Below, piece after piece: positions 17,738 through 52,650 of a stretch of DNA of 64,000 nt. The DNA lies in NCBI GenBank assembly GCA_034620365.1, contig JAQGEQ010000272.1:186001-250000 (forward strand), in the 5' to 3' direction. This stretch comes from Pegea sp. RAD2-039. Taxonomy: Eukaryota; Chordata; Thaliacea; Salpida; Salpidae. Numbering within the stretch: position 1 is the stretch's first letter; the number at the start of each line of letters is the position of its first letter. Made by a program: the position numbers and the translations under genes. The notes beneath the pieces are model-generated. The model did no database searches. It had not been told where the DNA came from and saw only the letters and a list, made by a program, of their open reading frames with translations.

Positions 17738-20700
17738 ATGGCTTATCATTATCAATTTATTAAAATATTTGTGTTTCTTTTTGTGTTATTATTCATAACT
17801 ACAAATGTTGAATCATATGCAAAAGTATCAACTGATATGGAATGTGCTAATAGTGAATGTACTGGTAAGTCTATAATTATAATTTTGTACTTTTGAATTT
17901 TAGTTTTTTTAATTCAATTTAAAGTTATCAAAAAGTTGTATAACATATCTTAGCCATTGGTTATATTAATGATCCTTTAAACATTTTAAGTAAATCTAAA
18001 TTATATTGAAGTTTATTCTTGTAATTAAGTTTTAATCCCTGAATAAGATATATAATTTTATGATAGCAGGTGATACTTAACCTAGTGAAATTTTCATACT
18101 GAAAAAAACAAACCTTTGTCACTAGAAATGCAAAAAAAGGCCTGTCTTTAGTATATTTCACTTTTTTAGTGTAAAGTACAGATGTCATTTTACTTAATTT
18201 CCTGCTTGAATGTTATGAAACACATTACTACTTTATTTACTTTGTCTAAGAAATTTTTTGTTGACTCATTCTAGAAATCATGTAAATTCTTTTATGATGT
18301 AAGAGTTCATCATCAAGTTTATTTTCGAAATTTTCCAAGTGAAATAATTACTCACATTTTGATAGTTGGCGCTCTTATATCAGTTTTATAATGGAATATA
18401 AAAAGGTTTCTTAACTAGCCAATGATTTGGTCAAATTTGAATCATTATCCTAAAAAGTATTCGATAAATTTTAAAAAACTTTAAAACCTTGTCAGTCTCT
18501 TCTTCTTCATATTTTTCTGGAGTTGTTCTTCAGACTTGGTATTCATGATTTTGAAAAAATGTAAGAGAATACCACACTATCTTATATATTAAATACCACA
18601 GAATTGAAATACCCGGTGGGCCCTAGGTATCAGTTTATCTCTAATTTTCTTTTGATGTTGTTATGTAGCTAAAATTGGAAAGATATATAATTTCAATATT
18701 ATTTTAGGAATATGTAACTAGCAAGTAGGTAACATCAAAATGAAGTTGTTGAACTAATTATACTTTTATGTAAAAGAAGTATCTCAAAGTTGATTGTTAA
18801 ATATCATCATTTTTTATAGAAACAATTTCTCAAGGAACAGCTAAAATAGGCTACAGACCTAAAGATAAAGTGTTTTTGAATATGAAAAAAGGAGATACAG
18901 TTTTAGTAAAAGCTAAAAATGCTGGCGTGACAACTAATCTGTGGGGTGGTCAGGTATTTGTTTTATATTTTTATGAATCTAAACAACATATTTTACATCT
19001 GAATTGAATTTATAAGTACAATAATTTAAAAAAATTGTTTTTGTTGATTTATTGTTACTATTTACTGTACCTTTAACCAGCTCTTAATATAATTTATTTG
19101 TTGTATATTTCATTTATATAATTAATCAAAAAGATTATCAGTAATAATTCTCCATAATTTTACTTGAGGTTTCTTACTATTTTTTACACCAACTAGACGA
19201 ACCACAATTTACACAGAATGCAATTTATATAAATAATGTTTCTGGTGAAAAACTTTTATAGCAAGTTGTTACTTAAGGGGATTTTTTATGGTAGATCATA
19301 GGCAGCAATCATTTTGGATTTTTTCCAAGTACTTTTATCAAAGAAAACCTGGTGATTCACAAATACCCATCTGTAATTGTTAAGACCAAGGTATCTTTTA
19401 GAAGATTTTACAGCTGGCTATTAGAATTGCGGTTTTGTTATAGATTCTAAGTTTTGTATCTGTGCTTTTATCAATTATGGTGTAGTTTTATCTGCATGTA
19501 GTGGTGTATTTCTTGCATTAGTTTTAAACCATAAATGTTTTTCGTTACCAGAATCTGTTTAAGTTTCTAATTATAATATTCAATTTTAATTTTAATTTCT
19601 TTAAAGTAACTAATTCAAAAAAATAGTCATCATAAGTTCTGTTAGTTAAAATTTCTATAAACTGTTTCAAGTTATTTTGACCTTATCTAAATGGTTAATT
19701 AGAATTGACTATCAGTTCTCTTCTAATAGATACTCGGCGGCTTGCAAAAAGTGTATTAAGTCAACAAGTTGTTTGATAGTTATGATTTTAACACCAGCTT
19801 TAGTATTCCACCTGTTAATATTGTTTATAAGGTTGTGGTTTCTTATTTCAACTGTTATTTTTGTGATAATTTTGTTCAAAGAACTGTTTTTAATAGTTTA
19901 TAAATGATACACCATAAATTAAGTGCCTTTTGATGACGAATCTTTTTCTTTTCACAACGTTTGAAGTTTGTAGAATTTAAACTAGTTGTGATAGAGTCTC
20001 GTTGTATTTCCTATCATCAAAACGCTATAATATATTGGCTGAGTTTGAACTACAGTAAATGCATTTTATTAATAACTTTAATTGTTTTATTTAAATTTCA
20101 CGGAAATTACACTAGCGCATATATGAGAGAAAAAACGTTTTCAGCCGCATAGACTACTGAGGGATTTTGTAGTTGTATGTCCATCTATACCATTGCTACG
20201 AAATAAGGAAGTAAACATTTAGAAGTACATTTGATGTGATAGGTCCAAACCTATTTAAATACTTAACAATCAATGATAAAGATTATTTGTAATTATTCCA
20301 ACATGTTACATTTCATTAGAAACTTTATTAAAAGTACTTTTTAGTGATATATTTGTTTGTACTGAGATGTAATTGGATTGGAATATACAAATATCGAAGC
20401 AAGTGTACTTGTACCTCTTCACAATGTGCTTTGAACATCAACATCTTTGGATACGAGCAACATTTATCAATTTAAATATTTGATATACTCATAAAATTGA
20501 TATATAATTATTACAGTATTGATTATTACATCAATATAAAGTATTTAATAATATTATCAATTTTATCCAACTATTACATTCTACAATTATTTTGCTTTAT
20601 GTTTCACAAATTTGAAGTAATTTTTTAGGTGTTTTGGTGTGCATTAGTTGTTGAGGTGGTTAAAAAATCATTTTTTAGCAATTTTTATTTTTGTTTTAGA

Positions 20701-23700
20701 AATTTATTGACAAAAATAAAGAAGAAGAACAGAGGACTATAATAAGTGGTGGACAAGTGAGTAGACTCTTTGATTCATCTCAAAACTGTCTAAACTTTTC
20801 AGATATTAATCGAATAATTGTAAATCTGTATAGACGAAATTTATTCAAATTTTCAAAATTCTAAAATCATTGTGTTAATCTGCAGAAGCTGATACTTGAA
20901 AAGCCTAAAAATAAAATACCCGGATCAAAAGATGGCCAACAAAATCAACCAGTAGCTTCTGATGACAAACAGATGTTTGATTCTACCAAAGATGCGGTGG
21001 TGGACAACTTTAAGGTAGAAACGAAAGCTGATGAAGTCGAAGCAGCTGTAGCTACAGTAGATGATCTGAACATCGACAACAAAGATGCAACGAAGTCTAG
21101 TAATATTGAAAGCTCAGAAGATCTGATAAAGAAGCTCATGAAATCTTCCGATGGAGATAATGAAAAAGTGAAAATGTTTCTCGGATTAGTTTCACCGAAT
21201 TCTATTGAAGGGAGTCGTGCTAATGATAAAACGGAAGATAATTATGAGATCAAACAAACCTTACAAGCAGCTCTTCAAGGAAGATCTAAAGATGAACAAT
21301 TAAAAAGTGACCCTTCTGTAGTCACAGTAAATGATGAGTTGAAGGTAAGGCAAGGAGAAGAGCTGTCTAAGGAGACAGAAAAAGATCTATCTGAAACAAC
21401 TTCGGGTGAAAAAGAAGTAGTTTTACAAGTGGATCTACCCAAAGATCTAGAAACTCCGGAAGAGCCATCTAAACAACCAGAAGAACCATCTAATGAACCA
21501 GAAGAACCTTCTGGTAAAAAAGAAGAACCATCTAATGAACCAAAAGAACCATCTAATGAACCAGAAGAACCATCTAATGAACCAGAAGAACCTTCTGGTA
21601 AACAAGAAGAATCATCTAATGAACCAAAAGAACCATCTAATGAACCAGAAGAACCATCTAATGAACCAGAAGAACCATCTAATGAACCAGAAGAACCATC
21701 TAGTGAACCAGAAGAACCATCTAATGAACCAGAAGAGCCATCTATTGAACCAGAAGAACCATCTAATGAACCAGAAGAACCAGTTAATGAACTAGAAGAA
21801 CCAACTAATGAACTAAAAGAACCATCTAATGAACCAGAAGAACCATCTAATAAACCAGAAGAACCATCTAATAAACCAGAAGAACCATCTAATAAACCAG
21901 AAGAACCATCTAATGAACCAGAAGAACCATCTAATGAACCAGAAGAACCATCTAATGAAGCAGAAGAACCAGTTAATGAACCAGAAGAGCCATCTAATGA
22001 GCCAGAAGAACTATCTAATGAACCAGAAGAACCATCTAATAAACCAGAAGAACCATTTAATGAACCAGAAGAACCATCTAATGAACCAGAAGAACCATCT
22101 AATGAACCAGAAGAACCATCTAATGAACCAGAAGAACCTTCTGGTAAACAAGAAGAATCATCTAATAAACCAGAAGAACCAGTTAATGAACCAGAAGAAC
22201 CATCTAGTGAACCCCAAGAACCATCTAATGAACCAGAAGAACCATCTAATAAACGAGAAGAACCATCTAATGAACTAAAAGAACCATCTAATGAACTAAA
22301 AGAACCATCTAATGAACCAGAAGAACCATCTAATAAACAAGAAGAACCATCTAGTGAACCCCAAGAACCATCTAATCAAGTAAAAGAACCATCTAGTAAA
22401 CCAAAAGAACCAACTAATGAATCAGAAGAACCAACTAATGAACCAGAAGAACCATCTAATGAACCAAAAGAACCAACTAATGAATCAGAAGAACCAGTTA
22501 ATGAACCAGAAGAACCATCTAATGAACCAGAAACACCATCTAGTAAACCAGATGAACCAACTATTAAACCAGAAGAACTTCTCCAACAATCAGAAAAAAA
22601 TTCTGATAAAGCAGGAGAGTCATCTGATAAAGATTCCGCTCAAAGAGCTCTTAGTAGCCAAATATCAGAGCAAGCTAACTCTCTTCAACCACAAAACCTT
22701 CCTTCTAGTGTCGGTGACAACTCAGAGACGATGCCAAGCAGCGATTTAACAGAAGGTATTTCTCGAGATAATTTTGGTTTGCATGGTGGTGTTGTGCATG
22801 GTTTTAAAGGTGCTACCAGTCGATGGACTGATGATTGTTTGTTGAATTTTATGTTGAATCGTAATCATGTTTGTAAAATTCAATTTGTTGATGTTCAAAA
22901 GTTTGTCAATCATAAAATTTCGAAATCATCTGCTAATCGAGATTCAAATATACCTGTTAATGATCAAGTTGTTAATTTATTTGATAATTATAAAAGTTTA
23001 AAAAATATTTCAGCAAATGAAAAATGTTTTGTCAATGAAATTTTTCATTTAAAAACATCATTAGCTTCTCCAAAGGAATTTTTTATAGAAAAAACTAAAG
23101 TTATCTCAAAAATTCTTTCTAAAAGCTCTGAATTAAATGGCAATCAACAAACTTCAATATTGAAATATATTTTCAAAACACAAGTCCCTGTTCATCAACC
23201 AACAACTCATATTCAAGTGGACGATACAAAAAGCAAAGTTGACATTGATTCAAAAAATTATTTTACGAAAAACTCAAAAAAAAGTTCAAAATATGAAGGC
23301 ATTGAAGATCAGATTAGCGCAAATATTATTGTTAAAACTGCAATTAAGCATCCACTAGCTAATTATTTCCAATCACAAGTTTCATATAAAGATGGTTTTA
23401 ATAAACAAATATCACATGTGTTGAGAAAAACTTCTTATCATCAAACTGAAGCTAGTAACATCATGCAACAAGGTGAACTTTCAAATGTTCATTTCTTGTC
23501 ATATTTTGTTAACAAGAACAACTTTTCACCTAATCCTGATTTTGCTAACTACAAAAAGGTATCACAAAATGATGAAGACGATGATATGGATGTAAAAGAT
23601 ATACAATTTGTGAAGTCTGAAGATCTTGAAGTTAAACAGACTGAAGATGAAGATCATGAAATTAAAGAAACTGAAGATAAAGATCTTGAAAGTAAAGAAA

Positions 23701-26700
23701 TTGAAGATAAAGATCTTGAAAGTAAAGAAACTGAAGATAAAGATCATGAAAGTAAAGAAACTGAAGATAAAGATCATGAAATTAAAGAAACTGAAGATAA
23801 AGATCATGAAAGTAAACAGATTGAAGATAAAGATCATGAAATTAAAGAAACTGAAGATAAAGATCATGAAATTAAAGAAGTTGAAGATAAATATCTTGAA
23901 AGTAAACAGATTGAAGATAAAGATCATGAAATTAAAGAAACTGAAGATAAAGATCATGAAAGTAAAGAAATTGAAGATAAAGATCATGAAATTAAAGAAA
24001 CTGAAGATAAAGATCATGAAAGTAAAGAAACTGAAGATAAAGATCATGAAATTAAAGAAGTTGAAGATAAAGATCTTGAAAGTAAACAGATTGAAGATAA
24101 AGATCATGAAATTAAAGAAACTGAAGATAAAGATCATGAAATTAAAGAAGTTGAAGATAAAGATCTTGAAAGTAAACAGATTGAAGATAAAGATCATGAA
24201 ATTAAAGAAACTGAAGATAAAGATCATGAAAGTAAAGAAACTGAAGATAAAGATCTTGAAAGTAAAGAAATTGAAGATAAAGATCTTGAAAGTAAAGAAA
24301 CTGAAGATAAAGATCATGAAAGTAAAGAAACTGAAGATAAAGATCATGAAAGTAAAGAAGTTGAAGATAAAGATCTTAAAAGTAAACAGATTGAAGATAA
24401 AGATCATGAAATTAAAGAAACTGAAGATAAAGATCATGAAAGTAAAGAAACTGAAGATAAAGATCATGAAATTAAAGAAGTTGAAGATAAAGATCTTGAA
24501 AGTAAACAGATTGAAGATAAAGATCATGAAATTAAAGAAACTGAAGATAAAGATCATGAAAGTAAAGAAACTGAAGATAAAGATCATGAAATTAAAGAAG
24601 TTGAAGATAAAGATCTTGAAAGTAAACAGATTGAAGATAAAGATCATGAAATTAAAGAAACTGAAGATAAAGATCATGAAAGTAAAGAAACTGAAGATAA
24701 AGATCATGAAAGTAAAGAAACTGAAGATAAAGATCATGAAAGTAAAGAAACTGAAGATAAAGATCTTGAAGTTAAACAGACTAAAGATGAAGATCCTGAA
24801 ATTAAACAGATTGAAAATAAAGATCATGAAATTAAAGAAATTGAAGATAAAGATCATGAAATTAAAGAAACTGGAGATGAAGATCATGAAATTAAAGAAA
24901 CTGAAGATAAAGATCCTGAAATTAAAGAAATTGAAGATGAAGATCTTAAAATTAAACAGATTGAAGATAAAGATCTTGAAAGTAAAGATGTGGATAAGCT
25001 TGGAGTTGAAATATTGAAAAATATTGAAGATGAAGATCAGATTAGCACAAATATTATTGTTAAAACTGCAATTAAGCATCCACTAGCTAATTATTTTCAA
25101 TCACAAGTTTCATATAAAGATGGTTTTAATAAACAAATATCACATGTGTTGAGAAAAACTTCTTATCATCAAACTGAAGCTAGTAACATCATGCAACAAG
25201 GTGAACTTTCAAATGTTCATTTCTTGTCATATTTTGTTAACAAGAACAACTTTTCACCTAATCCTGATTTTGCTAACTACAAAAAGGTATCAAAAAATGA
25301 TGAAGACGATGATATGGATGTAAAAGATATACAATTTGTGAAGTCTGAAGATCTTGAAGTTAAACAGACTGAAGATAAAGATCATGAAATTAAAGAAACT
25401 GAAGATGAAGATCATGAAAGTAGAGAAACTGAAGATAAAGATCTTGAAATTAAAGAAACTAAAGATAAAGATCTTGAAGTTAAACAGACTGAAAATGAAG
25501 ATCTTGAAAGTAAAGAAACTGAAGATAAAGATCTTGAAAGTAAAGAAACTGAAGATAACAATCATGAAATTAAAGAAACTGAAAATAAAGATCATGAAAT
25601 TAAAGAAACTGAAGATGAAGATCTTAAAAGTAAAGATGTGGATAAGCTTGGAGTTGAAATATTGAAAAATATTGAAGATGAAGATCAGATTAGCACAAAT
25701 ATTATTGTTAAAACTGCAATTAAGCATCCACTAGCTAATTATTTCCAATCACAAGTTTCATATAAAGATGATTTTAATAAACAAATATCACATGTGTTGA
25801 GAAAAACTTCTTATCATCAAACTGAAGCTAGTAACATCATGCAACAAGGTGAACTTTCAAATGTTCATTTCTTGTCATATTTTGTTAACAAGAACAACTT
25901 TTCACCTAATCCTGATTTTGCTAACTACAAAAAGGTATCAAAAAATGATGAAGACGATGATATGGATGTAAAAGATATACAATTTGTGAAGTCTGAAGAG
26001 AATATTGAACATAAAATTAAAGAAATATCTGAAGAAACTGAAGTTGAATCAAATACCTTAAAAGAAAAAGATTTAGAGCTACAAATGGTGCCCTTAAAGC
26101 GAAGAGTCGATGAGATAAAGAAAAAGGAACAGTTCTTAGCTGACGAAGCTCACTTAGAATTAAAACGTTTACGTGAAGCTCTTACAAAAGTGATCATGTT
26201 AATTAAAGAATATAAATCTGATTTATCCTTTAAAGTTCATTACACAGCCACTGAACAGATCCGATCTATTAAGCAAGACTTTAAAGAACAAGAGAACGAT
26301 TTGCGGAAAATCGGAGAGTTAAGTTTTAATCAAAATCTGTTTAAATCTGATGAAACGTTAGAAATGAAAAACGAAAAGTTAGATGAAGTTTTTGATGAAT
26401 TAAAACTAAAAGAGCGACTTTTAGATAAGACAAAACACACTTGTACTGATATACTAGAAAGCTTAAGAGATATAGAAATGATGTTAGAAACAGATCGAGA
26501 ACAAAACCAAAAGTATAAAGATGTTATAAGCAAACTGCAGCAAGAACTTGATCTGAAAAAGTTGTCAGATGAAAATACAGTAGCTACGATGCAACAAGAA
26601 GCTAATCTGACTCAAACAAAACTAAGTGAACTTGAAAGTAAGATTGTTGAAAATTTTAGTGGCCAAACAGTAGTCCAATCTCTTCAAGAGGAAGCAAACC

Positions 26701-29700
26701 TCTTAAAGGCTCGTTTAAAAAGCCTAGAAGATGTAATAAATACTCAAAAGCAAACTGGAAATAGTGAAATGGCGACTGATGAGGTTCTATCTGATCGGAT
26801 CTCTACTCTTGAGAAAAAGCTTGAAGCTCATAAAAAAGAAGAAGAAGAACTTTCAGCTTCTCAACAAGAAGCAGTAGAACTGAGGGAGCAAGTGATGAAG
26901 ATGAACAAAAGGTTTGATCTGTTACTTGAGGATCGAGATATGTTAGAACGTATTCAATCGCTGGAAAAAGAACTTAAAGAAAGAAAAGAAAATGATTCAA
27001 GCAGACAAATTTCGAATCATGACTCTATTTCGAGTTTGATTGATAAAGTAACTCGTCTTGAGGACTCTCATGCTTCTAGAAGTTCTGATTCAAGTTTCAC
27101 GGAGCTTAAATTATTAAAAACTCAGTTAGAAGATTTGATGAATCGAGTTAAAGACGAGAAAAAGAATCCAGTTTCGAAAGAAGATGATCCACATTTTAAA
27201 TTACAAGAACGAGTCAATATTTTAGAACAACAACTAAACGAAGCTAAGCAAAGAGAACATCAAGCGAGTCTCGATTTCAAAAAGTTTGAAAGATTATCTG
27301 AAAGATTAAAAGATTTAGAAAATTATGTTGATAACTCGAGTCAGAAAGAGCAAAAAATAAATAAAGATGTTGTAGTTGAGGCTTTACGGGAAGTTGCCAA
27401 TGTTGAAAAGTCGGATGCTGTTCTGAGAAACATTGTAAGTCTTGTGAATCCTCAACAACAAGATTATGATCCTGGCTTAGATGATCGAATGGAATCGATA
27501 AGTGAAGATAGTGGTGAGATTGCTTGCTTTTGTTTTGCATGTTTGATAAATATAATTTCAGCATGTGATTTTGATCTACGGTTACTACCTTCAAATTATT
27601 TCACATTTATTTTCTGTGTGTAGAAGATGAATATATAGAAATGAGAGCGAAGCCTGCAGCAGATGCTTATGATGAGTTACACGAAGGAAAGATTGTTGAT
27701 TGGAATGAATCGGTTGAGGAGAAACCTGTTGAAAAAGTGTCTTCGTGGGATGAGAGTATTGTTGATGATGAAGTCGATTATTCACCAGGTATGTTTGTTA
27801 GCTAATCATCTGCTTCTTATGTTCCTATTTATATTTCGAAGAAACTGAAGATGTTGAAACTAAAATGTTAAAGACGGAGCTTAAAGATGGTGATGTAAAT
27901 AAAAATGATTACTCGGTTGTGGAAGAAGATAAAACTGCTCCTTCAGAAGAAGATAATAAAGAAGATAAAACCGATCTTTCAGAAGAAGATAATAGAGAAG
28001 ATAAAACTGATCTTTCAGAAGAAGATAGTAGAGAAGATAAAACTGATCTTTCAGAAGAAGATAATAGAGAAGATAAAACTGATCTTTCAGAAGAAGATAA
28101 TGAAGAAGATAAAACTAAGTCTATAGAAGAAGATAATAAAGAAGATAAAACTAAGTCTATAGAAGACGATAGTAAACAAATTAATGAATCATCGGATAAT
28201 TTTAGAGATGGAATAGATAATGAAATTAACCCTGTGAAAAATAATAGTTCAGATTCTGAATTTGGTGAAATAAGTTCTTCAAATGATGATACAAATGATT
28301 CATCTCACATTGAAATACCACTTGATGAAATTTTGGAAGTATCAAAACCACTCGATAGTGAAATAGTCAAACTCTCTCAAACTCCTATTACATCTAAACT
28401 TACTGAAGGTGAAACATCATTTCAATCTTATTGTTTCATTTCTGTAAACCATTTGCTTATAATCAAGTTTTAAAAACATATTTTTAAAAATACAAGAATT
28501 ACTTTCATTAATCTTGTAAATACTTAGTTAAAAATTTTTGTTTAAATACAGTTTATTTGAAAGCAATAATATTATAAATGTTTATTTTCATTTTACAAAA
28601 TTCTTTGTACTTCAAGAAAACTTGGTTATCTTAAGCCAAGTAAGTTCCGAAGTAAAAGGTTAAAAAATACTATTCAAAGTCTTTTAGGTTTATTTGTTGA
28701 TTCAGCAAACTTGTATCGTGTATTTGTCGACATACAAAATTAATCTTTAACCAGACATATCTCACTTTTGTTTTATTTTTCTAGATTTAAATGAATCCAC
28801 TGACAACGACGCCGCATTTCTGATAGTAAGTAAACCACTTATGCGAAATATCATTTGTATCTCATGTTTTTTAAACAGAAATCTGCAAATGAGCTTGATC
28901 TAGAAGGGGTCACTTTAAAGTTGGTGCAATTACTGATACAACTCCCAGACGATCTACATTATATCGCCGAACCTCTTATTTTGTTTGTAAGTATCATTTG
29001 TAAAGATGTGAGCATAATTAAGACATCTAGCAGTTATTTCAAAAGACTTCTAGCTCTTCTATTTAGTGCAATCTTTAAGTAAGCTTAGCTAACTTGGTAT
29101 CTGTGAAAGCTAATAACATTTTGAAATTGAAACTTGACTTAACTAACTTAAAACCTTAAAAAGAATCCATATTTAAAGTTCCAAATTTTGATAAATTGTC
29201 ATAAAGAATAGTGGAAATGTGAATTAATATTTTGACAATCTATATTAACTTAATTTGCTCAACAGTTCAGCTTTTATTGATGAACTTTGGTTTGGTATTA
29301 CCAAAGTTTGTTTCATATTTACTATATAGGATCGATTTTAACTCATTAATGTGATTAGTGGCTAGAGGGGTTGAAGATTCTTTTGCATTCACCCTGCATT
29401 AACACGTAAAGACACAAGCAATTTAAATAATCCAAATAAATCAGTCTGATTTGTAAAATCTACTTTTAAGTTTCATTAAATGATACAAAATATTTTTATT
29501 ATAATAAACGCGAAAGAGGGTGCCTGAAGAGAGCACCTTTCACAAAAACAAGTTCTCACAAATAATTGTTTTATATATCTAAGTTAAAAATATAGAAAGA
29601 AAAATGTCTAACGCAAACAATTTTAATTTTTTTGTCATGTAGAATTTAAATTTATTAGAAAATTTAAATGCAACATATTAGCAAAGATTTGAATATTGAA

Positions 29701-32700
29701 AATGTTACTTGTAAGCTTTCAACTCTACTCGTGAAAATCTAAGAATAGCTAAAAGTTTGTTCTACAAAATAGATTGCGACCTACACTTTACCACCTTTCC
29801 TTAATACCATTTCCTGTCATTAAACTTCCTTCTTATAAAGCTTTCAAATTATTTAGTAAGAAATCAAATAGAATGAAAAATGTCTCAAGTTTTGTGAAAA
29901 ACATTTTTAACAAGTGTTATTTAAACCCGAGGTTTTAAAAAGGTTCTAAATATTTACTTTGTATCTTTTTGCAAGTTAAATCATCAAATGACTGACAAGG
30001 ACTTACAGTTATGGCCACGTCATCATTAAAATCAAGCTAAAAGATAATTATCAGTTTATGACAAAATTTAGTTATTTAAAGCCAAAAAATAATATTCAAT
30101 TAAAGTTTGTGTTTGTTTCATATAAGGAGAAAGGTTAAAAAAATAAATCTTGTTGAATTTTTAATGAAGAAACCACGATAAAAAGATATTTTAATATTTT
30201 TTAGATGTTATTTCATAATAAAGTGATAATAAAGCATTGTATTATAATTCTAAAACTCTTTTAATTGTTTAACACGTAAACTCCATTTAACTAATTATTC
30301 ATCTGCGTCAGCAGTTAATAAAATCACATTTTAGTTGCTTGTCAAATGCGAGTACCATAGAATAATTTTACTCGTCATCAATGCTGGCATGTTGAACTTG
30401 GTCACGGTTGAACAAATGTGCGTTGACGCAGTTAAATGTTTTTAATCCAAACATTTATGCTGTGTACGTGTAAATGGTAGACAGAAGCAAAAAAGTTTAG
30501 TTTATGGACATTTTTTCACCAAAAATACGACAGGGTCAATTTTTATTTTAGACAGTTTCGTCAGTCAACAATTGACGACTGTTTTTTATCTCAAAGGTGT
30601 TTATATTAAGTTTTTGCAGTTAAATTAAAAGTTGTTTTTTGTATTTACTTTTTTAAAAATTATTTTCTAAATTTAAGCAAGCTTTAGCTACTATTAGATT
30701 TTAACTATTTTGTTTACATATATAAAAGTTTAGTAAGATTTCATTAATTGTTTTTTAAATAAATTATTTCAAAAGTTGATGTTTTTAAATTTTATTTTTA
30801 AATAAAATAGGTTTTATAAGTTTAAATTTATTTTCCTTTTTTTTTAGTTTTGCTAAAATAATTTATTTATTAAATCATTTAATTAAAATCAGTTTAAATT
30901 AAAAATATAAAAAGTTTTAATTATAAGTTTTGAAATAATTGAGGTTTAGAAATCAAGTTCAAGTTGAAAAAAAAAAACTAATTTTTGTTATAAAGTTTTC
31001 AAGTTTAGATTATTTTATTAAAATATTTTTTGTAGCTGAGAATTAAATAAATTTTATTCTGATTTTAACTAAGGTTTATGTTTTTCATTTAAATTTATTT
31101 ATAAGTATTATATTACTTAGAATTATGTCTGTTAGTCTATCATATGCCATTGAAGAATCTAATAGCAGAGCTAAAAACAGAATTGATAATGTAAGTTATA
31201 AAGAAAAATAGTTTTGTTAGAAAACAATCTGTAGTTAGTTTACATAAAGTAAAATATTTTTATATCAAATCAATTATTTTTTAGTGGTTTTCTATTCTAC
31301 CTGCTGAGTATCAGGACAATTTTTATGGAATTCCTTGGTCTATTTTATTTTTTACTTCCTTGGCTGGCTTCTTTCTTATCCTAATAATTAATTGGCAAGT
31401 AAACTCAAACAAAAGTAGACAGAAAAGGGAATCTCAAGAGTCGGAACTGAATGAGTTGAAAGCTCAAATTAAATCAATTGTTGATGAAAAGTTGGTGAAG
31501 GAAAGAGAATTAGTTGATACTCAGAATGAGGTGACTTTGTTTTTTCATATTTAATTTTATTTATAGAAACTTAAGTGTTGTTTGAAAAAGTTTTTGAAAT
31601 ATAAATTTTAACTTTTTGTCTTCAATTTACTTATTTTAACACTTAGAAGCAAGTTTCTGTACTTCTTCATATAAATTAAATCTTTTTGATAAATCTTTTT
31701 ATAAAAGTAAATCTGACTTCTTTTAGTTATTCTTTTATGAAAAAAATCTGAATTTTTTATCAGCTGTACTTTTCAATTTTAGCTTAAACAACAAGATAAT
31801 AAATTCAAGAAACAAAATAATAAAACTGAAGCATTAAATAAGAAATTAGAAAGCTTAGAGGTAAGTTTTTAAAAGCTCTGTTTAAGTTATAAGTATGATT
31901 TATTTATTTTGATATCTAGTTAAGATTTCTAGTAAATAACCAAAAGCTTGATCTTATTATATAAATGAAATCCTTTTCAGGAAAAATTATCGAAAATAAT
32001 GAAAGAAAGTCAAACAAAGCAAAAAAGTATAGATGATTATCAGAATAAGTTAACAAATTTGGAAAAACAGAATGAACAATTAGAAAATAAAGTGAGTTTA
32101 AACTTTTAGATATATTTGTTGACTTGTTGTATGATGTTAAATTATTGGAATTGTTTGTTTGAAGTTATCTGATTATTTGAATTTTTTCTTATGAATGTAG
32201 AATTAAAGTTTATTTGAAAAATCCTTTTTGTAATCTTTATTCTTGATATAATTGATTTTTAATTAAAGATTTTCTGGTTAATTTTAAAGTTATTTTTAAT
32301 TTTTAAAATTTGTTCAATTTGTTTTCTAACTCAAAGAACTATATTCTCACTTTATATATATCATAATATATTTAAATATATACAAAATATTCTCACAAAA
32401 TTCAATATTAGTTCGTTAATTGCATGATTTTATATTCAATTTTTTTATTACAACTTGTCTAGTAACAACAATCTGTTTGTTTTCATAGATAACCAATCTT
32501 GTTGTGATTGTTGTGACATTTAAACCTCTTTACTTTTATTATTTTCATCGTTTGTTTGCAGGTAAAAGAAGAACAAAAACAATTAGATAAAAAAGAAAAA
32601 ACTTTAATTGATTATCAGTCTACTAATTCTGATTTAAAGAAAGAATTGAAAGATGCCCAAAAAGAATCGAAAAAACTTCAATCAGATCTAAAGAAACAGG

Positions 32701-34975
32701 AAGTACTCAGCACTCCATGTTTTAGTTGTTTGCTAATTTTGGTTTTTACAGAATGTGGCTCAAAATGAAAGTAAAGAAAAAACAAAAGTAGAATCCCAGC
32801 TTGTTGATAAGAAAGAGATGAATAATAAACTGAAAATTGAATTAAAAGAACTGAAAAAGAAAGTTGAAAAAATGTTAGAAGATAAAAAGCAGATTACAGA
32901 AGAGAAAGAGATCTTGAAAGATTGTCTTCTTCAATTTAAGGTAATAGTTAGACTCGAAATCTCATTGAAAAAGTTTTTCGTAAATAATTGTCTCCTTCAG
33001 GGAATTCAAGAAGCAATAAATAGCGATGACAGTATGGATCCTGACGAGTTGGTGGAAAAACAAGTTTAGACTCCATCTCTGATTCTGTTTTCACTCACCT
33101 ATTTGATGATTATTTACAGAAAGAAAAGTTTGATGAACTGGTCGATAGTGCAAGGATCCATTCTAGCTTAAAAGCGAAAGAAATAGAGAAGACAAACTTG
33201 ATGCATGAAATTGAAAAAGGAAAAAAATTGAATGAAGAAAGTGAAAGTAAACAGTTTTCTTCAATCACTCCCAACTCTTCTTCACTTCAAATGTTTCTAG
33301 TCAAAATTTCCAAGCTTGAAATTGAATTGCAAGATCTCAAATCACAGAAAGCTCAAGAAACACAAAGCAGGACAATGTCAGAAGCCAGGTTACAAGCTCT
33401 TACAGAATATTATGCTCAACGTGAGACTGCAATGCAAGGGTTAGTAGTTTTTTGACTTTTCCTAAAGTACTGAAGATAAATCTACAGAAAGTTGGGTAAA
33501 GAACAAACTGAACTTCAGAAGATTCAAACTCGATTGACTGAACATGAAGATTCGTCGAATGAGTTGGAGAAACAATTAGAAATTTACAAACAGATGAATG
33601 AAGAAGCAAAACGTGAATATAATGAAGCAGAAAAACAAAGAAAAACACAAATTGCAAAGTTTGAAAAAAAAGCGCATTCAAACTGGGTGAGTCCTAACTT
33701 CATCTCTTCCTAACTTCATCTCTTCCTAACTTCATCTCTTCCTAACTTCATCTCTTCCTAACTTCATGTCTTCTCAACTTCATGTCTCCATCTCTTCTTC
33801 TAGATCGCTTGTCGAGAAGCTGAACGTAATTTAGAAGATGCAAATCGTGAAATTTCTACTCTTCGAATGCAGTGAGTTGAAAATTATCTTTTTAAACTTT
33901 TATCAAATCTTTCAATCTTTAGAATATCTGATCTTCAAAAACCTCTGATCCGACCCAATCCACTGGTAGCTCCTAGGGGTCTTCAAAGATCAGGTGATGA
34001 CTTTTTAAATTTGTAAATCTTGTTGTAATCACGATTTTTTAGGTCAAAGTCCTTTACCTGTGAAAGAAAGATATCAAAGATCCGAATCACCTCATCCTAT
34101 GAGCAACATCCGGAGATCTATGAGCCCATCTGAGAGTTTTTCTGAAGACCACATCCAGTCAGAAGCTTCTCATCGTTCAAGACCCTCTTCTGTTTCTAAT
34201 TTTTCAACTGATCGGTCAATCAGACCGTTTCGTAGACCATTGGATGGCCCTTTTCCACCAATGGATATGCGACCACCTTATGATGGTCCACGTCCAATGC
34301 GACCACCTCTAGATGGTCCACATCCAATGAGACCACTTTATGACGGTCCACCTTCGATGAGACCACCTTATGACGGTCCACCTTCGATGAGACCACCTTA
34401 TGATGGTCCACCTTCGATGAGACCACCTTATGATGGTCCACATTCAATGAGACCACCTCTAGATGGTCCACATCCATTGAGACCACCTTATGATGGTCCA
34501 CCTCCAATGAGACCACCTTATGATGGTCCACCTCCAATGAGACCACCTTTAGATGGTCCACATTCAATGAGACCACCTTTAGATGGCCCTTTTCCACCAA
34601 TGGGTATGCAACCACCTTTTGATGGTCCACGTCCAATGAGACCCCATTATGGTGGTCCACATCCGATGAGACCACCCTTAAATGGTCCCCACCAAATACG
34701 ACCTCCTGTTCAAATGATGGAAAATCTACCATCTAAGCGCACAGGTAAATCATAATCAATTGATTCATCCTGTTTATGATCAGATCTCTCTTTTAGGTGA
34801 TCAACCTCCAAAGACTTCCTCGCCACTCGTCAACGCACCACCTGTAAGAGTTGGATAGCTCCCCAATCAATCTTTTAAAATCATCTTTTAATCACAGATG
34901 CGACATCTGCAACGTCATCCAGAACCTCATATGGACAATCTCACTGGTCCACAACCATCAACTTTCCCTGGTTAA
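17738..34975 (+). CDS. MIA3: giant TANGO1/MIA3 homologue (ER exit-site cargo receptor)
   Basis: Coding exons: 17738-17864, 18820-18953, 19295-19390, 20700-20756, 20886-27513, 27624-27788, 27842-28408, 28785-28825, 28879-28986, 31285-31530, 31783-31860, 31981-32091, 32562-32702, 32752-32940, 33001-33063, 33120-33439, 33488-33686, 33804-33871, 33923-33993, 34043-34744, 34797-34843 and 34898-34975. Phases agree throughout, giving about 3411 aa. A signal peptide (about 1-27) is followed by a MIA-type SH3-like domain (about 36-125; KIGYRPKDKVFL, then GFFPSTFI). The acidic lumenal region (exon 5 alone is 2209 codons) ends in a coiled coil. Exon 10 has the diagnostic FYGIPW and a transmembrane segment (SILFFTSLAGFFLILIINW). 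Cytosolic coiled coils and a proline-rich tail of about 10-residue repeats (RPPYDGP) follow. This is the TANGO1 order: the SH3 domain binds cargo in the ER, the coils bind TANGO1/cTAGE5 and tethers, and the proline-rich tail binds Sec23. The join between exons 9 and 10, across 2.3 kb, is the least certain step. Confidence 0.93.
21457..22590 (+). repeat. 21-bp coding tandem repeat (7-aa EPEEPSN) in TANGO1
   Basis: Roughly fifty tandem copies of a 21-bp unit reading CCAGAAGAACCATCTAATGA plus one base, encoding heptads of the type EPEEPSN (protein residues about 329-705). Units vary at the fourth to seventh residues (SNKPEEP, SGKQEES, VNEPEEP). All variation keeps the frame. This makes an acidic, proline-rich, presumably disordered spacer in the ER lumen after the SH3-like domain. 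Confidence 0.95.
23307..23622 (+). repeat. 105-aa lumenal module, copy 1 of 3
   Basis: 316 bp encoding a non-repetitive module that begins QISANIIVKTAIKHPLANYF and ends near FANYKKVSQNDEDDDMDV. It returns nearly base for base at 25035-25350 and 25683-25998, with exactly equal length. I know no family for it. It lies between the heptad repeat and the first decapeptide repeat block. It has no cysteine and is mixed polar and hydrophobic, so it may fold, unlike its flanks. Confidence 0.95.
23626..24995 (+). repeat. 30-bp coding tandem repeat (10-aa EDKDHEIKET), block 1
   Basis: About 45 units of 30 bp coding decapeptides of the type EDKDHEIKET, with variants DLESKQI, DHESKET and DHEIKEV. A higher-order 120-bp period (four decapeptides) is visible: lines starting at 24001, 24421 and 24541 repeat without change over 120 bp. 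The block forms a highly charged, probably helical or disordered lumenal stretch (residues about 1052-1508). Confidence 0.95.
25035..25350 (+). repeat. 105-aa lumenal module, copy 2 of 3
   Basis: Second copy of the module at 23307-23622, offset by 1728 bp, with only a few base differences. It is preceded by a short linker (DVDKLGVEILKNIEDE) that is also present before copy 3 but not copy 1, so copies 2 and 3 share a longer duplicated unit. Confidence 0.95.
25354..25640 (+). repeat. 30-bp coding tandem repeat (10-aa), block 2
   Basis: A shorter array, about nine to ten decapeptide units of the same family as 23626-24995, between module copies 2 and 3. Its first units match the first units of block 1, as expected if module plus array was duplicated as a unit and block 1 then expanded or block 2 contracted. 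Confidence 0.93.
25683..25998 (+). repeat. 105-aa lumenal module, copy 3 of 3
   Basis: Third copy, 648 bp after copy 2. It is nearly identical, with one clear replacement (GFNKQ becomes DFNKQ). It leads directly into the membrane-proximal coiled coil (about 26000-27400) instead of another decapeptide array. Confidence 0.95.
27925..28180 (+). repeat. 36-bp coding tandem repeat (12-aa EDKTDLSEEDNR) in TANGO1 exon 7
   Basis: About seven units of a 36-bp repeat encoding acidic dodecapeptides (EDKTDLSEEDNR and variants such as EDKTKSIEEDNK). This is a third repeat family in the same protein, in a different exon from the heptad and decapeptide arrays, and again fully in frame. Confidence 0.92.
28987..31124. 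other. long TANGO1 intron / possible internal promoter region
   Basis: About 2.1 kb without coding exons between TANGO1 exon 9 and the alternative first exon at 31125. It is AT-rich and contains one copy of the dispersed element at 29500-29565. If the short TANGO1 form has its own promoter, it should lie here. I could identify no specific promoter element. Confidence 0.55.
29500..29565 (+). repeat. dispersed element, copy A
   Basis: Shares the core GGGTGCCTGAAGAGAGCACC and the flanking ATAATAAACGCGAA / TTCTCACAAATAAT with copies at 37975-38042 (inverted) and 52651-52738 and with a fragment at 41961-41998. Family unknown. Confidence 0.7.
31125..31190 (+). other. MIA3: alternative first coding exon, TANGO1-short-like isoform
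   Basis: 22 codons starting MSVSLSYAIEESNSRAKN end in phase 0 at a GTAAGT donor and so can join the transmembrane exon at 31285 in frame. Entering this exon from exon 9 (phase 0) through the AG at 31119-31120 would meet a stop (TAG) at the fifth codon, so it is not an internal exon of the long form. It fits a start exon for a form lacking the whole lumenal part, as in vertebrate TANGO1-S or cTAGE5-type proteins. The AG four bases before the ATG looks like a splice acceptor, so a trans-spliced leader or a 5' UTR exon is likely. Confidence 0.6.
33693..33772 (+). repeat. 16-bp tandem repeat in a TANGO1 intron
   Basis: Five tandem copies of CCTAACTTCATCTCTT, the last slightly diverged, fill most of the intron between exons at 33488-33686 and 33804-33871. 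The unit is pyrimidine-rich and runs into the acceptor, so it extends the polypyrimidine tract. Confidence 0.9.
34240..34700 (+). repeat. 30-bp coding tandem repeat of the TANGO1 proline-rich tail
   Basis: About fifteen units of 30 bp encode decapeptides RPPYDGPPSM and RPPLDGPHPM. They make the cytosolic proline-rich domain. In known TANGO1 this domain binds the Sec23 inner coat through PPP-type motifs; here the regular RPP and DGPxPM units presumably do so. An antisense ORF over this block is a by-product of the repeat. Confidence 0.92.
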
Positions 34976-45814: not shown

Positions 45815-48800
45815 ATGAGGTAATTTTTTTATAAAGAGAAACATTTTAATTTGTTTTAAAATGTATTTAACTGATATTTTTATTTTGTACTATAATAATC
45901 AATAATAATCTTTTTATTTATTATTTTATTTTCAAAATTTAACAAAATATTTTAAATATAATAAGTGGTAATTGATACAAAAAACAATTAAATTGTTGCT
46001 TATTCAGAGTAAATATTGATGGGTTACTCGTGCTTTTTCCATATGAGTTCATTTATCCTGAGCAATACTCCTATATGACTGAATTGAAGAAAACACTGGA
46101 TGCAAAAGGTCATGGAGTCTTAGAGATGCCTTCTGGAACTGGGAAGACTGTTTCTTTGTTATCTTTGATTGTTGCTTATCATTTAGTTAGTTTTGTGATT
46201 AGTTGGACTTTTAAATGATTAATTTTAGTTTTAAATTGTTGTTTCCACTTCTCTATCTGTAATAGTTTAAATGAAATTCAAGACTTTTTTGAAGTTCAGT
46301 AATTTGAAGTTCTAATTTAAAAAAATTAAAACTATTTTGAATCATTTTCTAAACCTACTTATTGAATTTTGTTTTAGGAACATCCAGACATTGTTGCTAA
46401 ATTTATTTATTGTTCTCGTACTGTTCCTGAAATTGAGAAAGTCATTGAAGAGTTGAAAAAACTCTACAAATATTATGAACAAGAAGCAGGAGTTGCTCCT
46501 GATATACTAGCTCTAGCGCTCAGTGCACGGTTAGACACGATTAGTTGAATTTGAATTATTACTGGATCTGTTTCATTGCAGAAAGAATCTTTGTATAAAT
46601 CCACAAGTAAAAAAACTTGGTGTAGGTAAAGATGTAGACGGGAAGTGCCACTCTTTAACTGCATCTCATGTTAGAATGAAGCATCAACACGATAGTAGCA
46701 CGCCAATTTGTTCATTTTTTGAGGTAAGTAGATACATGTTTGATCTCTCTCACATCTGTTTTATCTTGTAGACGTTTGACAAGTCTGGTAGAGAATCATG
46801 TATTCCAAAAGGAGTTTATAATCTAGATGATTTACAGAATTATGGCAAAATGAAAGAATGGTGCCCTTATTTCCTAGCTAGATATGCTGTCAGTATTTCT
46901 ATTTGTTTATTCTTGTTGTAACTTTGTTGTTTGCAGATTACTATTGCTAATATAGTTGTGTACAGTTATCACTACTTACTTGATCCTAAAATTGCTGAAT
47001 TAGTATCTAAAGATCTTCCAAAGAACACGGTGGTAGTATTTGATGAAGCGCACAACATTGGTTAGTTGTTAAAAGACTTTTTTAAGAATTCTCAATTTCT
47101 TATCTCTTTTTAATCTTTGTTTTTAGATTTATTAATCGTTTGAAATTATTAAAAATGACTTTTTTCATCTATAGTTGATTAAAACCTCAAATTTTCTTCA
47201 TCATATCCTTTTGTAGTTTATCTTTCATCTCAGAAACTCCCTGACATTTATCACATAAGGTTGCTAATGAGACATTTTGTAAAATACAATCTTCCACTAA
47301 CTTTCACTAACAATCTTATCGAGAATCTAACTCCCCGGGACTTTTTCTGTAATCTAGATGGATCTTTTAGGTAAATAGAACTTCTTTTTTTCAGATAATG
47401 TCTGTATTGACTCAATGAGTATCAACATAACTCGAAAACTTCTCGACAAAACGACAAAAAATATCGACTCTCTTAAATCCCATCTTACAAAGTAAGATTT
47501 TCAACATCAACTCTAAAGTCTCAAAACAATTTTCAATCACTAGATGTCGCACTACGGGAGAAGAAAACCTTCGAAACGAGTATCAGCGACTAGTAGATGG
47601 ACTCAAAGAAGCAAATGTAGCGCGCGAAAGTGACGTCATCCTCGCAAATCCTGTTCTACCCGATGAAATCTTGCAAGGTGGCAACAACTGTCAACTTTCT
47701 TTTAGTAACTTCAGTTTCAGAGGCGGTCCCTGGCAACATCCGAAGAGCAGAACACTTTGTGGCGTTCATGAGAAGATTCGTGGAATATTTAAAGTCTCGA
47801 CTTCGTGTGCATCACACCGTGTCCGAGTCTCCTCTTTCTTTCATCCATGATTGCGATCAGCAAGTCTGCATCAAACAAAAACCTCTTCGTTTCTGCTCCG
47901 AAAGACTCCGATCTCTTCTCAAGACTTTGGAGATCACTCAAATGTCCGACTTCTCGCCCCTCATCGTCATTTCCAACTTTGCCACGCTGGTCAGCACTTA
48001 CAACAAAGGTTTGACCCCTAAAACCTGTCCCACATCTACTCACCACTTTCTTAGGCTTTGTAGTGTTAATTGAACCATTTGACGACCGGGTTCCGACCGT
48101 CATCAACCCAATCCTTCACTTCAGGTGCCCCAACGCCCCACACGACCTTTAAACTGACCTTTGACCTTGTACAGCTGCATGGACGCCTCGATAGCGGTGA
48201 AACCGGTCTTTTCTCGTTTTCAAAGCGTCATAATAACATCCGGGGTACTTTGAAATAGTCTAAGCTGCCTCTGACTTCACATCTACATCAACAGACTCTT
48301 TCACCTCTTGATATGTATCCACGGATACTTGACTTTCAGCCGGTTACCATGGCGACGTTTACAATGACTCTAGCCCGTCCATGTCTTTGTCCATTGGTAA
48401 CTTGCGATTGGATTTCTGGCTCACTTCAAGATGCTTTTGTGTCCGCAGATTCTGACACGTGGCAATGATCAAGTGACCATGAGCTCCAAATTTGAGTCAC
48501 GTGAGGACGTGGCGGTCATTCGTAACTATGGCAACCTGCTAGTTGAGATGTCGCGAATAGTACCTGATGGAATTGTTTGCTTTTTTGTTTCTTATACTTA
48601 TCTTGTGAGTTCCGCTAGTTGGCGCCCGAGAGAGTATTGTTTATGTTTAGTTGATTTTCTATTTTTGTTCTCATAAAGCGAGAAAATTATATTTTGACAT
48701 CGACAGGAAAATGTAGTTGTAAGTTGGTACGAACAAGGAATCCTGGAAAACGTTCAACGCAACAAACTAATTTTCATCGAAACACGTGACTCAGCAGAGA

Positions 48801-49555
48801 CAAGTATGGCGTTGGACAAATATCACGAAGTAAGTTTGATCATTTGCAAAATAACAAAAGTGAACTTTGTGATGATGATAGGCTTGTAACAATGGCAGAG
48901 GGGCTGTACTGTTGTCTGTAGCTCGTGGTAAAGTGTCAGAAGGTGTTGACTTCAGTAAGTGAAAGGTGAAGACAAGCAGATGTATCTAACTCACTATTCC
49001 CAGCTCATCATCTTGGTAGGGCGGTTATCATGTTCGGAATTCCTTATGTGTATACACAAAGTAAGACTCTAAAATCAAGATTAGAGTATCTACGTGAGAA
49101 TTATCAGATCAGAGATTGTGACTTCCTCACTTTTGATGCCATGAGACACGCAGCTCAATGTGTTGGGCGAGTTATTCGAGGCAAAACTGATTATGGTGTA
49201 ATGATATTTGCTGATAAAGTAAGCAGGGTGTCACGTGGTTAGTTTTGCTACTTTACATCTTTGTAGAGATATTCAAATAATGATAAGAAGAGTAAACTAC
49301 CGCGATGGATACAAGAACATATCTCTGCTGCTGTTTGTAATCTGTCTACAGATGAATCTGTTCATATCACAAAACGGTTTCTACGCTTAATGGCCCAACC
49401 TTTCTTGAAAGTAATTTTGATATTTAGTTTTTGGCAGCTTTTTAAATATCTGTTTACTACAGGAAGATCAGCTTGGTCTTTCACTTCTGACTGTTGAACA
49501 ATTAGAATCAGAAGAAATGAAGAAACAAATCCGAAGTGCTGCCAATCAAAATTAG
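45815..49555 (+). CDS. ERCC2: XPD/ERCC2 DNA helicase, TFIIH subunit
   Basis: Eighteen exons: 45815-45819, 46008-46185, 46378-46529, 46582-46723, 46772-46888, 46937-47060, 47395-47491, 47544-47677, 47721-48008, 48055-48124, 48175-48244, 48295-48396, 48449-48604, 48707-48829, 48882-48954, 49004-49218, 49267-49410 and 49463-49555. The product is 760 aa, the length of human XPD. Motifs: Walker A MPSGTGKT; four Fe-S cysteines (NLCIN, GKCHS, TPICSF, EWCPYF); DEAH box ([10 protein letters not shown]); motif III (IITSGTLSPLD); motif V/VI ([35 protein letters not shown]). It is a 5'-to-3' SF2 helicase that opens DNA in nucleotide excision repair as part of TFIIH and anchors the CAK kinase module. The first coding exon is only five bases. 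Exons 8-13 are markedly richer in GC than the rest. The 3' end converges on ZFYVE21. Confidence 0.98.
47550..48570 (+). other. GC-rich block inside XPD
   Basis: Exons and introns between these limits use many C- and G-ending codons and CpGs. Counted by eye, GC is 32 of 60 at 48121-48180, largely intron, and 26 of 60 at 47821-47880, compared with 19 of 60 in an XPD exon at 46381-46440. Composition changes back to AT-rich by 48700. Confidence 0.75.
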
Positions 49556-50976: not shown

Positions 50977-52248
50977 TTAAGGAGAATATGCACATCTCTG
51001 AGTTAGGCATCTAGGGTTTAAATCAGAAACTTGAAGCAGTTCAGCTTCGCCGGCCTCCGTAAGACTTTTTCCATTTATCCATTTTTTATCAATATAATAA
51101 GCAAGTTGAGAAAGGGCTTCTTTGTTAGAATAACCAACAACTTCAATTGGAATATGAGGATCCAAGCAATCAAAACCTTCGCTTGTTAAAATATCATATG
51201 GATATTCTTCCATATCTAGCAATTTAGATGGACTAGTAGTACTTAGCGCGGTTACAACAGCGCCATTTTTCCATTTACCTGACAACAATTTTCTAAAATG
51301 ATAGAAGAAAGTTAACTGGTTAGCTTCAGGTATTACACCATACATCAATTTTAATTGAATTGGTTTTTCAAATAACACATTCACATTATCAGCAACAACT
51401 AAAGTTTTAGGAAACTGTTGAGATTCCTGCTTTGTAATTTCTCTTATAATAGCTCCAATAACATCAGAAGCATATCTGTTTCTGTTGATACCAGCATCAA
51501 CCAACTCCAGGAAAGTTTTACCTTCAGCTGTTTCATCTCTCTTTGACCACTGATAATGTTTGGTTGTATACAGATTTGATAAATGTGATGAATTCAAAGT
51601 TTTAAACACTTTTAACCAAGTAGCAGCATGTTCTGGTTGATCATATCTCCCTTCCTTCCATTGAGACGGAGCAACTTCTAACCTATTTTCTTTTACAACT
51701 TTAGATTTAAATTTTGTCCAGTTCCATAAATTAGTAGTTGGCACAATGAGCCAGTCTTTACACATTGCATAATGTAAAGCATATAACAAAGCCATACTTT
51801 TACCAGTTCCAGTTGACCCATATAATAAATATCTATTAACAGGTAGATTGTAGTTAGCAGTTTTCAAAAAATGCACCAACTCTAAATTTGGTTTTCTAAT
51901 CATCATACAATACTCATTAAATGCTTTGCAATGTCTGATGTACTGTTGAGATAAGAAGTCAATTTCCAATCCTTTATTTACCATCTTTTGTGTATGATTT
52001 TGAGGAATTGTATAAAACAATCCAATATCAGTTAGTCTATGATCTACTGGATCAGGTTGATCACATCTAAACTTTTTTACATGACTAGCTTGCCCAAGTT
52101 TAACTTGTGATAAATGATCAGGCAATTTTACAGTAATTTTAGATGAATAGCATCTATTAAAATAGAAATTAGACAAATTTCTTCTGGCAGTTAAGCCAGT
52201 AATAAGTTTACAAACTTCAAAAGACTTCATTACTCTTCTAACTATCAT
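50977..52248 (-). CDS. DAP3: mitochondrial small-ribosomal-subunit protein mS29 (DAP3)
   Basis: One uninterrupted 423-codon frame with no introns, unlike every other gene here. The N-terminus (MIVRRVMKSFEVCKLITGLT, then ARRNLSNF) is basic and without acidic clusters, like a mitochondrial targeting peptide. A P-loop GSTGTGKS is at residues 144-151, followed by the mS29 family segments WNWTKFKSK and TFLELVDAGINRNRYASDVI, and VVADNVNVLFEKP as the Walker-B-like region. mS29 is the GTP-binding protein of the mitoribosome head and is also known as death-associated protein 3. Met7 is an alternative start. The lack of introns could mean retroposition, though no poly(A) remnant is evident. Its stop lies 140 bp before ZFYVE21. 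Confidence 0.95.
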   Translation of the reverse strand: MIVRRVMKSFEVCKLITGLTARRNLSNFYFNRCYSSKITVKLPDHLSQVKLGQASHVKKFRCDQPDPVDHRLTDIGLFYTIPQNHTQKMVNKGLEIDFLSQQYIRHCKAFNEYCMMIRKPNLELVHFLKTANYNLPVNRYLLYGSTGTGKSMALLYALHYAMCKDWLIVPTTNLWNWTKFKSKVVKENRLEVAPSQWKEGRYDQPEHAATWLKVFKTLNSSHLSNLYTTKHYQWSKRDETAEGKTFLELVDAGINRNRYASDVIGAIIREITKQESQQFPKTLVVADNVNVLFEKPIQLKLMYGVIPEANQLTFFYHFRKLLSGKWKNGAVVTALSTTSPSKLLDMEEYPYDILTSEGFDCLDPHIPIEVVGYSNKEALSQLAYYIDKKWINGKSLTEAGEAELLQVSDLNPRCLTQRCAYSP

Positions 52249-52650
52249 AAAAAAGTTTTGATTAGTAAATAAATATAAAAGAAACTTTGTTTATTGATTA
52301 AAAAATTATTGACATTAAAATTTGTTTATAACACTCTAGATATAACTATTTATATAGAAAGCTCATTTAGTAATTATGTTTTTGGCTTTCTTCATCATAA
52401 AAATTGCTTTAATAACTTAATAAATAATTTCATATCGTAAATATATAACTTAATAATATCTTATAGTTTATAAAAGCATTAATTACATGAAACAATTTTT
52501 ATAAACTTGCCTATTTACCTAAGCTAACATTAATTAATTATGTTAATAATCAGTGAATAGAATAATCATTTAATATGAAACTTATAAAATAAAAACATTT
52601 GAAAAATAGTTTTAGTAAGTTTGAAAAAAATGTTAAAAAAATAAAAATGT

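Follow-up and report, generated by a model that had tools for sequence, protein, structure and literature searches.

The window analysed here, a 64-kb stretch of contig JAQGEQ010000272.1 from the salp Pegea sp. RAD2-039 with a GC content of 28.5%, carries a predicted TANGO1 gene whose lumenal arm contains long tandem repeat arrays. TANGO1 assists bulky proteins, collagen among them, in leaving the endoplasmic reticulum. From splice sites and phases read off the sequence, we assembled a 22-exon model (17738-34975, +) in which all introns are GT-AG and a single frame predicts a protein of 3411 amino acids (aa). Exon 5 (20886-27513, +) is 6628 nt long and comprises 2209 stop-free codons between an AG acceptor and a GTGAGA donor, with phases matching those of both neighbouring exons. 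The initial annotation had proposed such a single giant lumenal exon in a protein of close to 3400 aa, and the stop-free frame and the in-phase model bear out both proposals. Skipping of exon 5 as a normal cassette isoform was considered and rejected: the exon is entered in phase 0 and the next exon requires phase 1, so its omission would shift the frame. The features of the gene are as follows, the exons being based on the gene model and any further basis given in brackets.

17738..17864 (+): exon 1, start codon, signal peptide (MAYHYQFIKIFVFLFVLLFITTNVES) and CANSEC cysteine pair opening the MOTH domain (hydrophobic windows starting at residues 1-16)
18820..18953 (+): exon 2, first part of the MOTH/SH3-like domain (PDB matches to MIA 1i1j and TANGO1 7r3m)
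19295..19390 (+): exon 3, second part of the MOTH/SH3-like domain (PDB matches)
20700..20756 (+): exon 4, 19 codons, phase 0 to 0
20886..27513 (+): exon 5, giant lumenal exon (open frame)
21459..22578 (+): heptad array (EEPSNEP), 21 nt x 53, within exon 5
23303..23623 (+): module core copy 1 (about 107 aa), within exon 5
23622..24986 (+): decapeptide block 1 (DHEIKETEDK), 45.5 units, within exon 5
25031..25351 (+): module core copy 2, within exon 5
25350..25634 (+): decapeptide block 2, 9.5 units, within exon 5
25679..25999 (+): module core copy 3, within exon 5
26019..27461 (+): lumenal coiled-coil-like region, residues 1850-2330 (3.5-residue periodicity)
27624..27788 (+): exon 6, acidic lumenal
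27842..28408 (+): exon 7, acidic lumenal, with a 36-nt array (EDKTDLSEEDNK x 7) at 27923-28176
28785..28825 (+): exon 8
28879..28986 (+): exon 9, first part of the candidate half-membrane (IM) helix (hydrophobicity, human comparison)
31285..31530 (+): exon 10, end of the candidate IM helix, transmembrane (TM) helix (PWSILFFTSLAGFFLILII) and start of the cytoplasmic coiled coil (hydrophobicity)
31783..33993 (+): exons 11-19, cytoplasmic coiled coils (periodicity)
34043..34744 (+): exon 20, proline-rich domain with a 30-nt array at 34267-34695 (repeat scan)
34797..34975 (+): exons 21-22, C-terminus and stop codon

Within exon 5, Tandem Repeats Finder reports the heptads as 53.3 copies of a 21-nt period at 21459-22578 (score 1659) and the decapeptides as 45.6 copies of a 30-nt period at 23620-24988 (score 2045) with a second block of 9.6 copies at 25348-25636 (score 410), in agreement with the roughly fifty heptads and roughly fifty-five decapeptides in two blocks claimed at the outset. 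The module is present in three copies, as had been claimed, starting at 23303, 25031 and 25679 with 99% identity across 300 nt; its length is revised from 105 aa to about 107 aa, since the stretch common to all three copies spans about 321 nt. The scan added two arrays absent from the earlier description: exon 7 holds one of 36 nt x 7.1, and the proline-rich exon 20 one of 30 nt x 14 with units such as RPPYDGPPSM. The proline-rich tail is thus a tandem array too, and repeat growth touches both ends of the protein. All five arrays scoring above 300 in the window fall inside the TANGO1 gene; the periods of these exon arrays are multiples of 3, and indels are zero in four of them and 7% in the proline-rich one. 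Intron 17 harbours a minisatellite (33692-33787, +; 16 nt x 6) whose period, unlike those of the exon arrays, is not a multiple of 3.

The assignment to TANGO1 is well supported by the order and nature of the predicted domains. In a phmmer search, the best PDB matches of the MOTH/SH3-like region are MIA (1i1j, E 8.7e-8; 1hjd, E 1.3e-7) and TANGO1 (7r3m, which we take to be the human protein, E 3e-7), with ordinary SH3 domains ranking behind them from E 8e-4. The N-terminus shows a signal-like hydrophobic stretch in windows starting at residues 1-16. No lumenal cysteine other than Cys 36 and Cys 41 occurs ahead of residue 789, such that the first cysteine pair is present and the second absent, and invertebrate MOTH domains are described as keeping the first disulfide pair and lacking the second (PMC10119292). 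A simple periodicity test on eight regions pointed to coiled coils in the lumen (residues 1850-2330, 3.5-residue periodicity 2.26 times the shuffled mean) and in the cytoplasm (residues 2680-3110, 3.49 times), values reached by 0 of 500 shuffles in either case; two other regions gave shuffle fractions of 0.036 and 0.016. A strong TM helix at 2657-2675 (mean hydrophobicity 2.16) is preceded by a less hydrophobic segment, the candidate IM helix, around 2625-2649 (best 19-residue mean 1.13). Human TANGO1 places residues 1145-1165 in the lumenal leaflet and spans the membrane with residues 1177-1197 (PMC7266638), and the spacing between the two helices in the Pegea protein resembles the human one. 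The proline-rich tail consists of 28% proline and contains 22 PP but only 2 PPP motifs, where several copies of this Sec23-binding motif (PMC7594496) would be expected of a TANGO1 tail. Taken together, the MOTH matches, coiled coils, paired membrane helices and proline-rich tail bear out the identity originally proposed for the gene.

We searched the genome assembly (105.7 Mb, 387 contigs) for relatives of the gene and of its repeats. No second TM exon or MOTH domain was found at E < 0.01 in this exon-by-exon search, which may miss diverged paralogues, and the gene is the only one of the TANGO1 (MIA/cTAGE) family that we could detect. All three matches of the module lie at the TANGO1 gene, with no copy elsewhere in the genome, as do all 14 matches of the decapeptides (150 of 156 candidates scored). 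For the heptads, 6 of 10 matches lie at the gene and the other four are weaker, at 43-48% identity (150 of 255 candidates scored). Among the candidates scored, the arrays therefore have no strong counterpart elsewhere in the genome. The module found no relative in the PDB (best E 0.2); in Pfam, searched with four protein pieces that left out most of the arrays, it gave a sub-threshold match to Pantoate_ligase (16.6 bits against a cut-off of 20.7) that we take as chance. No report of repeat arrays in TANGO1 was found among the titles and abstract openings listed for open-licence papers.

As a control for array density, 29 of 46 fetched loci were scanned (201,354 bases, about 0.2% of the genome), the other 17 being left out as overlapping others or lying inside the TANGO1 gene. 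Five stretches (50 kb) of the control were chosen regardless of genes, and the remainder surrounds SH3 and collagen matches. The scan returned four arrays scoring above 300 across three loci. Two of these loci, L010 and L011, had been picked for their resemblance to exon 7 and were excluded from the fair count, leaving one array in about 195 kb. Five such arrays within a single gene are thus more than chance would give. Two of the four control arrays have periods divisible by 3 (18 and 12 nt), the other two a period of 11 nt. L010 (672-1718) and L011 (1070-1688), on two other contigs, carry similar 11-nt units in 95 and 56 copies that match at 99%, and an 11-nt period would break a reading frame.

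The size excess over human TANGO1 is nearly all lumenal. Here the lumenal arm comprises about 2598 aa against about 1122 aa in human, a figure derived from published helix positions and a human signal peptide of about 22 aa; this is a 2.3-fold difference, whereas the cytoplasmic parts (736 and 710 aa) differ by a factor of only 1.04. The claim that the arm is unusually long is supported by this comparison with the human protein, whose full length is 1907 aa (PMC7062462). With a single unit kept per lumenal array and a single copy of the module, the arm shrinks to 1367 aa, so that of some 1480 residues in excess of human the repeats explain about 1230. The region between residues 27 and 2654 (2628 aa) contains 737 acidic residues and 362 Lys/Arg. 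By the scaling relation for unfolded polypeptides, its calculated end-to-end distance would be about 52 nm, compared with 31 nm for a chain of 1100 residues.

The arrangement of the repeats points to how the arm grew. The module copies are spaced by 1728 and then 648 nt, both multiples of 3, and the difference of 1080 nt equals exactly 36 decapeptide units. One short linker sequence precedes both copies 2 and 3, and the duplicated unit was therefore probably a composite of module, array and linker. The two decapeptide arrays probably changed size after this duplication. The module cores differ at four sites, three of them residue-changing and one silent, and each copy has private differences.

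In order to assess constraint on the repeat units, we compared silent with residue-changing variants. Among distinct codon variants, 4 of 26 are silent in the heptads and 0 of 13 in decapeptide block 1, where random single changes would be silent at fractions of 0.217 and 0.153, respectively. Counted per unit, silent codons number 9 of 73 in the heptads, 0 of 80 in block 1, 0 of 20 in block 2 and 1 of 16 in the exon 7 array, and third codon positions are the least variable in the repeat units. When changes were simulated with the spectrum seen in the arrays, the silent fraction came to 0.142 (standard deviation (s.d.) 0.039) for the heptads and to 0.100 (s.d. 0.033) for block 1. By this measure the heptads appear neutral, and block 1 shows a deficit of silent changes. 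As silent changes are not enriched between units, there is no sign of constraint on the residues, and purifying selection on them was rejected on this ground. Simulated sequences remained without a stop codon in 236 of 300 runs for the heptads and in 17 of 300 for block 1, lending weak support to coding constraint on the latter.

We consider it likely that the sole detectable TANGO1 gene of Pegea has had its arm lengthened by repeat arrays and duplication into an acidic tether, and that this growth is recent and has for the most part been tolerated, not selected for length. The arm would have grown from about 1370 to about 2600 residues through in-frame expansion of arrays and through tandem duplication of a unit composed of the ~107-aa module, a decapeptide array and a short linker. 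We infer that the arm is disordered; flexible and strongly acidic, it would keep the cargo-binding MOTH tip away from the membrane ring at endoplasmic reticulum (ER) exit sites. The IM and TM helices would anchor it in that ring, and the cytoplasmic half would recruit coat protein complex II (COPII) and ER-Golgi intermediate compartment (ERGIC) membranes as usual. The lumenal part of TANGO1 is described as less understood than the cytoplasmic part, and in Drosophila the SH3 domain of Tango1 is reported to interact with p24 GOLD domains (PMC10932740), which suggests that the arm tip has more than one partner. The limited effect on procollagen secretion reported for loss of the long form, TANGO1L, in human cells (PMC8524724) favours tolerance of such growth.

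The initial annotation had instead suggested that arm length is under selection for bulky cargo, with a longer tether carrying the MOTH domain deeper into the ER lumen or across the TANGO1 ring. Given a ring of about 200 nm (PMC7704110), an ER lumen of 30-60 nm (PMC13255678) comparable to the calculated span of the arm, the 2.3-fold expansion of the arm beside a nearly unchanged cytoplasmic part, and the presence of several arrays in one gene, such selection is conceivable. The cargo inventory argues otherwise. Fibrillar collagen C-domains gave seven matches on four contigs, and collagen IV eight matches in a divergent gene pair. The triple helices reach at least 328, 340, 276 and 267 Gly-X-Y triplets in four fibrillar-type genes and at least 430 and 409 in the two collagen IV genes, counted as lower bounds from runs of at least six triplets within the fetched stretches. 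These values lie near the roughly 338 triplets of a vertebrate fibrillar collagen helix, and at these lower bounds no exceptionally long collagen was seen among the four fibrillar-type genes and the collagen IV pair. The two collagen IV genes (L026-L029, G000:C57:942000-976000) lie head-to-head with their C4-domain ends outermost. Since the repeat units also show no constraint, the repeats make up most of the excess, and loss of TANGO1L affects procollagen secretion in human cells to a limited degree, the suggestion was not supported by these tests and we regard selection for length as unlikely.

Several observations nevertheless weigh against tolerated growth and the underlying assignment. 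Export of type II collagen in medaka is reported to depend on Tango1L (PMC12702677), zebrafish tango1L mutants die by 12 days (PMC12690545), and exit sites capture procollagen condensates less well once TANGO1L is depleted (PMC13255678). The need for the long form in fish would fit selection for length; these results, like those from depletion, bear on the presence of the arm and not on its length. That several arrays cluster in a single gene might point to selection over tolerance, and the missing silent variants of block 1 might also reflect diversification. The silent-change test is itself weak, because units copied together do not yield independent counts. Furthermore, the MOTH region falls just under the Pfam SH3_2 cut-off (20.7 against 21.8 bits), and a genome-wide SH3_2 search with 38 matches missed this intron-split domain.

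Composition rather than length might be what matters, with the acidic arrays acting as low-affinity calcium binders or as multivalent partners of procollagen condensates or ER chaperones. The twofold excess of acidic over basic residues noted above would suit this role, and disordered TANGO1 domains may recognise procollagen (PMC13255678), but drift in AT-rich, slippage-prone GAA/GAT/AAA codons could yield the same composition, and we hold this explanation to be very unlikely. An assembly error behind the arrays or the module duplication seems to us extremely improbable: near-identical copies 0.65-1.7 kb apart are error-prone and one assembly was available, but 29 of 53 heptad and 18 of 45 decapeptide units are distinct, no module copy lacks differences of its own, and the reading frame is preserved. 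Rather speculatively, arm length could be a fast-evolving, individually variable trait in which minisatellite length tunes the reach of the cargo-binding domain at ER exit sites. The flank of the arrays has a single genomic match at 100% identity, the other six matches being repeat-like, 70-72% identical and on two other contigs, and no second haplotype was seen in this flank search of the assembly; length polymorphism thus stays a prediction.

Elsewhere in the window, an open frame of 437 aa (50977-52290, -) resembles the mitochondrial ribosomal protein DAP3/mS29, judged by eye, and frames at 47431-49242 (+), judged likewise, resemble the XPD/ERCC2 helicase.

The gene offers a natural variant in which the arm is extended by defined repeat units at unchanged cytoplasmic size, a ready experiment on arm length versus the tip domain alone, and an example of how a lumenal linker can grow. 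Were minisatellite length to tune the arm, a secretory cargo receptor would be adjusted through minisatellite length.

Comparison with the human and fly proteins was limited, at the level of sequence, to PDB domains. With human TANGO1L (MIA3), the Pegea protein shares the signal peptide, MOTH/SH3-like domain, lumenal coiled coil, IM and TM helices, cytoplasmic coiled coils and proline-rich tail, as far as the human layout is set out in the sources cited (PMC7062462, PMC7266638). It differs in its roughly 2.3 times longer arm, owed chiefly to tandem arrays, in the absent second disulfide pair and in a tail with only two PPP motifs. Human TANGO1S finds a possible parallel in a candidate alternative first exon at 31125-31190 (+), which offers an ATG, 22 codons and a phase-0 GTAAGT donor 94 nt upstream of the TM exon, a position like that of human exon 6a (PMC8524724). 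Such an exon is expected by chance about 0.3 times in that intron, and its use as an in-frame cassette exon was rejected, as reading from the AG just upstream runs into a stop. Whereas TANGO1S has an IM helix in another sequence (PMC7266638), the candidate exon, judged by its sequence, would supply none. Drosophila Tango1, the single family member in the fly, is described with the same complete lumenal and cytoplasmic layout (PMC7829582) and a MOTH domain without the second disulfide (PMC10119292), but tandem arrays such as those of Pegea go unmentioned in the parts of these descriptions on which the comparison is based.

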